The translations under genes and the position numbers were made by a program. Positions 56,601-61,845 of a DNA stretch of 64,000 bases are shown piece after piece; within the stretch, counting starts at the first letter, position 1; every line of letters begins with the position of its first letter. Source of the stretch: Pseudomonadota bacterium (GTDB lineage: Bacteria; Pseudomonadota; Gammaproteobacteria; Burkholderiales; Sulfuriferulaceae); assembly GCA_021845925.1 (NCBI GenBank), contig JAJZUW010000002.1, forward strand, positions 83,529 to 147,528, read 5' to 3'. The notes below the pieces were generated by a model that worked only from the letters and a program-made list of their open reading frames with translations, did no database searches and was not told the DNA's origin.

Positions 56601-56743
56601 GGGCACCTCGCAAAACTGTCACGAGCCGGACAAAGCCAAGGCGCACCGCGCGCAGGATGCGAGACATATCAGATAGATAGGCGAGTGGCCGAGCACGGAG
56701 CAACGCTGGAATTGGACGGCGCAGCAGGTTTTTCGAGGTACCC
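56601..56743. repeat. MITE-like element with terminal inverted repeats
   Basis: GGGCACCTCGCAAAACTG at 56601-56618 is the near inverted copy of CAGGTTTTTCGAGGTACCC at 56725-56743 (about 16 pairs with one mismatch and small indels). The 143-base element between the TorT-like gene and fba carries no ORF of its own, as in miniature inverted-repeat elements or dispersed intergenic repeats. No transposase is nearby and I find no second copy in the window. Confidence 0.5.
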
Positions 56744-59426: not shown

Positions 59427-60611
59427 TTATTTGCCTGCGCGTTGTTCCAGAATTTCGACAGCCGGCAGCACCTTGCCTTCCAGGTATTCCAGGAAGGCGC
59501 CACCAGCGGTTGAAATATACGAGATTTTGTCATAGATATCGTACTTCTGGATAGCGGCAATCGTGTCACCACCGCCAGCCAGGGTGAATGCTTTGGTATT
59601 GGCAATGGCCATGGCAATGGTTTTGGTGCCTTCGCCAAACTGGTCGAATTCGAATACGCCCACCGGGCCATTCCAGACCACCGTTCCGGCCTTCATGATG
59701 ATATCGGCCAGCACGCGGGCAGAGTCGGGACCAATGTCGAAGATCATGTCGTCGGCTTCGACCTGGTCAACCGTTTTCAGCACTGCCGGCTCGCTGGCAT
59801 CAAATTTCTTGCCACAAACCACATCCGTGGCGACCGGAATGCTGGCACCGCGTGCGCTCATTTTGGCCATCAGCGACTGGGCGGTTGGAACCAGGTCATC
59901 TTCGCACAACGATTTGCCGACATTCTTGCCGGTGGCGCGGATAAAGGTATTGGCAATGCCGCCGCCTACCACCATCTGGTCAACTTTTTCCGAAAGCGAT
60001 TCCAGCACGGTCAGTTTGGTCGATACTTTCGAGCCGCCAACGATGGCTACCATCGGGCGTGCCGGGTTGGCCAGGGCGCGATCCAGTGCATCCAGTTCTT
60101 CGGTGAGCAGAATACCCGCAGCAGCCACCGGGGCGAATTTGGCAATGCCATGCGTGGAAGCTTCGGCACGGTGCGCAGTGCCAAATGCGTCCATGACGAA
60201 AATGTCGCACAATGCGGCGTATTTCTTCGCCGTTTCATCGAGATTTTTCTTTTCGCCCACGTTGACGCGCACGTTTTCCAGCAGAACCAGTTCGCCTTCC
60301 GCCACGTCGAATCCACCATCCACCCAGTTGGCAATCAGCCGCACCGGTTTGCCCAGCTTGGCGGTCAGCACATCGGCCACCGGTTGCAGGGAATCTTCTG
60401 CCTTGAATTCGCCTTCGGTGGGTCGGCCGAGGTGACTCGTCACCATCACGCGGGCGCCTGACTTAAGGCAGTGTTCGATGGTGCGCATGGAAGCAGTGAT
60501 GCGGGCATCGGAGGTCACCTTGCCATTGGCAACTGGGACGTTCATGTCGGCGCGGATGAAGACACGCTTGCCTTTGAGATCAAGATCAGTGATGCGGATG
60601 AAGTTAGCCAT
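59427..60611 (-). CDS. pgk: phosphoglycerate kinase
   Basis: This 394-residue monomeric kinase makes ATP from 1,3-bisphosphoglycerate. It has [24 protein letters not shown] (residues ~15-38), HLGRPTEG, the hinge region, [13 protein letters not shown] (nucleotide-binding side), [27 protein letters not shown] and GGGDTIAAI near the C-terminus. The ATG at 60611 is preceded by GAAGGGAAAC; the frame stays open upstream through a repeat element, but I do not believe that part is translated. Since gap ends with a strong terminator, pgk needs its own promoter in the 60612-60788 interval. Confidence 0.96.
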
Positions 60612-60631
60612 TTTGTTTCCCTTCAAGGTTA

Positions 60632-60778
60632 AATATTCAGGCTTGAATCTGCTGCGGTGGTCATCTGCGTCGTTGCGCGGTGCCCTGCGGTGTCCAGCCG
60701 TCGTAGCGCGGTGCCCTGCAGTGTCCAGCCGTCGTAGCGCGGTGCCCTGCAGTGTGCAGCATTGCAAGCCTGAATATT
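60632..60778. repeat. structured repeat element upstream of pgk: inverted repeats flanking 3 x 31-bp tandem repeats
   Basis: Three head-to-tail 31-base units occupy 60668-60698, 60699-60729 and 60730-60760; units 2 and 3 differ at one position and unit 1 at two or three. They are bracketed by an inverted repeat: the left arm 60632-60655 and right arm 60756-60778 share complementary GCAGCA and CAAGCCTGAATATT blocks. The element fills most of the gap-pgk interval in the pgk control region. Its RNA could fold into a long stem with the repeats in the loop. Confidence 0.85.
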
Positions 60779-60788
60779 CAGTCTCCCG

Positions 60789-60820
60789 AAAAAACCGGCC
60801 GGTCTGCAAAGACCGGCCGG
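60789..60820 (-). terminator. strong Rho-independent terminator after gap
   Basis: CCGGCCGGTCT at 60795-60805 pairs perfectly (11 base pairs) with AGACCGGCCGG at 60810-60820. On the minus strand the stem is followed by TTTTTT (60794-60789). It lies 11 bases past the gap stop and should separate gap from pgk. Confidence 0.93.
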
Positions 60821-60831
60821 GTGTGACAGCA

Positions 60832-61845
<1,014 letters not shown>

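Follow-up and report, generated by a model that had tools for sequence, protein, structure and literature searches.

The gap-pgk spacer of the 64,000-nt stretch of DNA analysed here (the window) is, on balance, best read as carrying a conserved leader hairpin of pgk whose loop has taken up part of a scattered repeat, the hairpin most likely serving as a processing or stability barrier in the mRNA. The initial annotation had described the inverted arms and the tandem units between them as a single compact element. This unity was not borne out, because the arms and the repeats differ in origin: the hairpin occurs in same-genus relatives without the units, and the loop sequence comes from a dispersed repeat.

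On the minus strand, the gene order is gap (glyceraldehyde-3-phosphate dehydrogenase; 60832-61839), an intrinsic-terminator-like site (60795-60820; 11-bp stem, TTTTTT tail), the hairpin and repeat element, pgk (phosphoglycerate kinase, 394 aa; 59427-60611), a pyk-like ORF and a fba-like ORF, the last two being named from inspection of their translations without a family search. The ATG of pgk is at 60611-60609 and is preceded by GAAGGG at 60619-60624. A scan of 60560-60900, which covers sigma-70-like promoters and no other promoter type, found none on either strand. Thus, the proposal that the element overlaps the pgk promoter or 5' leader held for the leader and found no support for the promoter. 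Given that a terminator-like site lies between gap and the hairpin, part of the pgk transcript may begin at an unrecognised promoter.

Tandem Repeats Finder reported a 31-bp unit in 3.0 copies at 60668-60760 on the plus strand (score 165, 95% matches), which is one of two tandem arrays in the window. Around it lies a perfect 14-bp inverted repeat (60632-60645 and 60765-60778); the 64 kb hold no second one that is perfect over 14 bp or more with arms no more than 200 bp apart. The three 31-bp tandem units inside inverted arms in the gap-pgk spacer are therefore real. An arm length of about 23 bases had also been a fair estimate, as the predicted stem consists of 16 bp, a small internal loop and six further pairs. 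The count of three stands for the 31-bp units, and the array can also be read as a longer, earlier unit 1 between the left arm and unit 2 (60650-60683), units 2 (60684-60714) and 3 (60715-60745), and an incomplete unit 4 (60746-60764). In the sense of the RNA, the 5' arm of the hairpin is CTGAATATTCAGGCTTG (60765-60781, minus strand) and pairs with the 3' arm, CAAGCCTGAATATTTAA (60629-60645, minus strand). The two arms together span 153 nt and enclose a repeat-derived loop of 119 nt (60646-60764, minus strand), with a G+C content of 67% versus 58.5% in the window. Folding of the pgk-strand RNA of 60612-60785 gave -61.3 kcal/mol (z = -3.9), a value equalled by none of 200 shuffles. An intrinsic terminator was rejected as an identity for the hairpin, since no T-run follows the stem (CCTTGAAGGG) and a terminator scan, limited to loops of 3-8, reported just 60795-60820. 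Elsewhere in the window, a GTACTT hexamer repeat at 546-632 (14.5 copies, 95% matches) is a possible contingency locus.

The spacer was compared with pgk loci and their upstream DNA from relatives, sampled at one genome per species (30 loci, including the window's own, L021, and a further 80). Directly ahead of the pgk Shine-Dalgarno sequence, many of these relatives have a hairpin composed of GTGAGCTTTAAGG, a variable apical stem and CCTTAAACCTTAC. In a seed alignment of 21 loci, which were chosen for showing the hairpin, changes on both sides were found in 12 of the 18 pairs, 89.6% of the cells were paired, and none of 500 shuffles reached any of five measures. In a second alignment, of 33 non-seed loci, both sides had changed in 11 of 18 pairs, 89.2% of the cells were paired, and the five measures were reached by 0, 1, 0, 5 and 0 of 500 shuffles; as these loci were found with the covariance model described below, the set leans towards structure, and one member (L298) is identical in its letters to one seed. 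When one arm of the 33-locus set was slid by 1-3 columns, pairing was at most 49.6%; such slides retain the relatedness among loci, which the shuffle tests ignore. A genus alignment of 16 rows including the window, ten of them shared with the seed set, had both-side changes in nine of 17 pairs. The upper stem letters varied by genome, with UCAGG for UAAGG in five genomes (G000, G002, G004, G005 and G009) and UGAGG in two (G006 and G015), and pairing was kept. Past the pairing itself, the stem base had invariant letters, namely UGA/UUA, which include a G-U wobble. This G-U, the third pair from the base, was present in every row of the three alignments (21/21, 33/33 and 16/16), which favours an RNA structure over a DNA palindrome.

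The position of the hairpin varied little as well. In all 41 loci measured, its base lay 15-22 nt (median 17) ahead of the pgk start codon, despite gap-pgk spacers ranging from 96 to 236 nt, and the hairpin spanned 42-67 nt in these relatives. The spacing set comprises 41 of the 45 loci that matched the covariance model, and L065, L070, L123 and L130 were left out owing to differing coordinates. The covarying stem and the near-fixed distance to the start codon suggest that the folding is probably functional. The hairpin is not indispensable at pgk, given that in nine of the 110 loci gap and pgk are < 25 nt apart, too little to hold it. In favour of a structural role, among 51 further loci without a match to the model, the spacer fold reached z <= -2 in 38 and z <= -3 in 32, scores to which gap terminators contribute; 13 others were left out of this set (nine with spacers of < 25 nt and four in which no gap was found). 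At the position of the hairpin, L071 has another long palindrome, of the GGGTGGGTTA...TAACCCACCC type, which ends 16 nt ahead of the pgk start codon. A strong hairpin with another sequence is similarly placed before pgk in L039 and in the Rhodocyclaceae-like loci L057, L058, L069, L073, L075 and L087, its core being around AAGCRTTGC..GCAAYGCTT with extra pairs outside.

A covariance model (R1) was built from the 21 seed loci. In a search of 61 genomes, 14 of the 17 same-genus genomes matched, and in each the best match was between gap and pgk. G005 matched in a search of the loci (26.6 bits, E = 0.003), and pgk was not found in the incomplete assemblies of G010 and G016. The R1 hairpin was present at pgk in 15 of the 15 same-genus genomes having pgk, ten of which are seeds. 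Across 300 genomes of the order, 43 matched at E <= 0.01 and 257 did not. The best match was between gap and pgk in 37 of the 43 (32.1-62.1 bits) and without an adjoining gap or pgk in six (G052, G084, G137, G165, G201 and G231; 29.8-37.3 bits), indicating that the specificity of R1 is incomplete. A search of 100 of the 110 pgk loci (all except L112, L113, L120, L122 and L124-L129) yielded 45 matches at E <= 0.01 in the leader on the sense strand, 21 of them from seeds; lower-scoring antisense matches are explained by the nearly palindromic motif. Five loci (L037, L056, L063, L067 and L070) had an additional match elsewhere at the same cut-off. Second matches also occurred in G218, G247 and G159; those inspected away from pgk were in L289-L291, L293, L295 and L320. 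By eye, the off-pgk matches are GTGAGGxGTGAGG-like repeats, and they were not counted as pgk hairpins; those at L321 and L323 stand ahead of a purD-like ORF, likewise judged by eye. Inverted repeats like GTGAGGxGTGAGG / CTCACxCCTCAC are scattered in related families (L037, L289-L295, L320, L321, L323 and L328-L332). Some of them precede other genes and resemble the arms of the pgk hairpin, with which they may share a common origin.

In the window itself, an R1 search reported no matches, and with filters off it gave a partial placement of 7.1 bits that used other pairing, presumably because of the 119-nt loop. The window was assigned to the family from an arm score and an alignment. Arm pairs were scored with a model made from the 21 seeds of R1 that ignored loop length and admitted spans of 36-220 nt on both strands of the 64 kb. 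The window arms were the top pair at 38.6 bits, with all other placements > 6 bits lower; G005 scored 35.5 bits and the seeds 42-58 bits. In a MAFFT alignment, both arms aligned without gaps to the 15 same-genus hairpins, and the stem arms could be aligned to GTGAGNNNTAAGG / CCTTANNNCTTAC, with pairing kept through compensatory changes. The distance from the hairpin base to the pgk start codon was 17 nt, the median of the relatives. On these comparisons, the window arms are almost certainly a local variant of the hairpin found directly before pgk in many betaproteobacteria. Rfam 15 at gathering score returned no family in seven pgk loci; the best scores were 20.3 bits in the window region (gathering score 46.6) and 14.9 bits in the leader of L051 (gathering score 49). 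Neither the pgk hairpin nor the dispersed repeat family was found described in the open-access literature, searched mostly at listing level, which agrees with the initial view that no element of such form had been described. A plasmid collection matched the leader in short pieces only (17 records, best E 0.02).

The loop has a different source. Its first part, 60646-60683 on the plus strand, corresponds to one half, the left, of a palindromic element with dispersed copies and holds unit 1 of the alternative reading. Among 13 candidates scored in each genome, this segment had at least 11 matches in G037 at E <= 0.0051 (best E = 5.6e-9, 92%) and at least 13 in G059 at E = 9.6e-6, with weaker ones in G041 and G001. 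Read whole, the copies in G037, G041 and G059 are about 146-150 bp long with a nearly palindromic interior, and their ends are close to AACAGGCYGTTGAAAA...TTTTCAACRRCCTG. The 31-bp units align with the half-element, represented by unit 1, as [CTGCGGTG..][CGTCGTTGCGCGGTGC], and for units 2 and 3 each, none of 2000 shuffles aligned with unit 1 as well. The similarity of the loop to multi-copy elements was significant in G037 and in G059, and the element has relatives in the own genome. Only the left half could be recognised in the loop, where neither the second half nor the second end of the dispersed element was found. These comparisons suggest that the repeats are very probably the remains of a dispersed palindromic element, tandemly copied inside the hairpin loop, with the three units at 60668-60760 as shortened copies of the half-element.

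Relatives of the dispersed element occur elsewhere in the own genome. A search with the G059 copy found two tandem arrays, isolated copies on C6 and on C9, and a copy in the window. The arrays hold 3.9 copies of 122 bp at C5:139300-140700 (L263) and 5.1 copies of 142 bp at C5:33200-34900 (L264), the latter with an N run inside one copy. A degenerate copy lies 3' of the fba-like ORF at 56637-56706 on the minus strand (G000:C7:140165-140234; E = 2.3e-12 and 82%, aligned to positions 43-113 of the G059 query of 153 bp), so that the gap-pgk-pyk-fba cluster carries two traces of the family. The complete element of arms and units was found once in the own genome, and the next best match there covered 33 bp of the loop at 85%. 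Elsewhere in the own genome, the arms were matched by 14- to 19-nt stretches at E > 1 only. In the sister species, the hairpin stands at the identical place without the repeats. Similarity between the G005 loop and the window repeats was not detectable, and the G005 loop was rejected as an earlier state of the repeat before its expansion, as 299 of 1000 shuffles aligned to the window loop equally well. Methylobacillus flagellatus strain L1B (L102) has a member of the dispersed family in its gap-pgk spacer, apparently from an independent insertion, and R1 found no hairpin in that spacer. A second small family in the own genome, of about 150 bp, has the ends CAGGCTGTTGAAAAACG / CGTTTTTCAACGGCCTG in common with the dispersed element around a different interior, and was read in four copies (L267, L268, L269 and L270 on C3, C12, C9 and C6), some of which look TA-flanked.

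REP/BIME, ERIC and Correia sequences are types of dispersed palindrome. The loop sequence is like them in deriving from a dispersed intergenic palindrome, here of ~145-150 bp, that is also found in tandem arrays. The window copy differs from them in being a half-element, internally duplicated and placed within a hairpin loop. In the simplest history, part of the dispersed element would have been inserted into or captured in the loop, its right half would have been lost, and the remaining left half would have been duplicated in tandem as a shortened 31-bp unit. Selection would meanwhile have retained the stem, which closes 17 nt ahead of the pgk start codon. The repeats lie in the loop, where added length may be tolerated, and they are probably passengers there.

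Among the possible roles of the hairpin, we tentatively regard that of an mRNA processing or stability barrier, uncoupling pgk from gap expression, as the most likely. The Zymomonas gap-pgk and Rhodobacter puf hairpins are intercistronic determinants of processing and stability. The window hairpin resembles determinants of the gap-pgk type in lying between two genes of a glycolytic/Calvin-cycle operon, for which it would set differing RNA levels. In the gap-pgk transcript, the stem could form a structural barrier 5' of the pgk ribosome-binding site; once the spacer had been cut endonucleolytically or trimmed 3', the stem would shield the RNA next to pgk and set its boundary. As an outcome, the level of pgk, with pyk and fba, would be partly uncoupled from that of gap. 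In Escherichia coli, RNase E is reported to cut the epd-pgk RNA near the 3' end of the coding sequence, within epd (PMC2948425). This cut is an instance of processing near this junction in another bacterium and is not evidence for the pgk hairpin here. The two also differ in that the mapped E. coli site is in the coding end of epd, whereas the hairpin here has conserved letters of its own and a near-fixed spacing (PMC2948425).

A possible but less likely role, ranked next, is that the hairpin is the site of a specific trans-acting RNA-binding factor or serves translational control of pgk. The strong conservation of the stem letters would fit a specific binding factor rather than a generic barrier, in particular the invariant UGA/UUA with the G-U wobble at the base and the distance of 15-22 nt to the start codon. 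Moreover, the gap operon of Legionella is under CsrA/Rho control, with a reported Rho-dependent event downstream of tkt (PMC5338858), and this switch is an example of such an operon being controlled by RNA-binding proteins. RNA structure decides the expression of genes of the gap operon in Legionella, as is predicted for the window; the Rho event there is downstream of tkt, whereas the hairpin here stands before pgk (PMC5338858). On the other hand, the upper letters vary in one clade while pairing persists. Strong folds of unrelated sequence in other lineages (z <= -2 in 38 of 51 loci, a count that may include some gap terminators) also speak against a letter-specific factor. A bolder extension is speculative and unlikely: the hairpin could be a regulatory RNA dedicated to the Calvin-cycle/glycolysis operons of betaproteobacteria, which a specific factor reads through the invariant stem base with its wobble, and in this species a repeat element would have captured the loop and made it an expandable array adjusting pgk versus gap.

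The initial annotation had suggested that copy number and folding of the element could set pgk expression independently of gap. The folding part fits the covarying stem and the near-fixed start-codon distance described above; the copy-number part was not supported. It appears improbable that the number of repeats tunes or phase-varies pgk expression, since same-genus relatives have the hairpin without any units, with hairpin spans of 42-67 nt in 41 relatives, and since the units of the window differ among themselves at 1-3 of 31 bases, so that a very recent expansion of the array is not evident. Tandem units are nevertheless able to change in number, the loop would be transcribed if read-through from gap reaches pgk, and the dispersed-element family forms other tandem arrays in the own genome.

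It is highly unlikely that the whole structure is one mobile element, a minisatellite within a MITE whose terminal repeats are the arms and whose interior is the 31-mers. Such an arrangement exists in BrickBuilt, a MITE that bears a minisatellite and is reported 19 times in one Porphyromonas gingivalis genome (PMC4596501). BrickBuilt is likewise intergenic and has spacer-less tandem units within inverted ends (PMC4596501). The relationship of the loop to a dispersed element also fits this reading, and, by eye, the arm letters CAGGCTTGAA are faintly like the CAGGCYGTTGAAAA ends of the dispersed-element family. However, the ends here belong to the leader of the host gene, and the complete element was found once in the genome, which sets it apart from BrickBuilt (PMC4596501). 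The arms are furthermore orthologous to, and covary with, the same-genus hairpin that lacks repeats, and their matches elsewhere are the 14- to 19-nt stretches at E > 1. The whole-element reading was dropped once the sister spacers had been read, as the inverted ends are not part of a mobile element. It is equally doubtful that the arms serve a transcription factor of the gap-pgk operon as its DNA operator, as a conserved palindrome adjoining the gene start might suggest, because the invariant G-U would be a mismatch in a DNA palindrome, the arms covary even in the variable apical stems, the arm span is 153 nt in the window versus 42-67 nt in 41 relatives, and the sigma-70 scan found no promoter-like site.

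The window can be regarded as a natural experiment, in which the loop holds 119 nt, yet both the stem and the spacing between it and the start codon are intact. This is as expected if the base of the stem, and not the loop, does the work. The analysis separates two things that resemble one element: a repeat-derived loop, and a covarying hairpin at a near-fixed distance before pgk, for which Rfam 15 gave no family at gathering score in any of the loci tested. This hairpin, if functional, could account for unequal amounts of the enzymes encoded by the co-located genes gap, pgk, pyk and fba.
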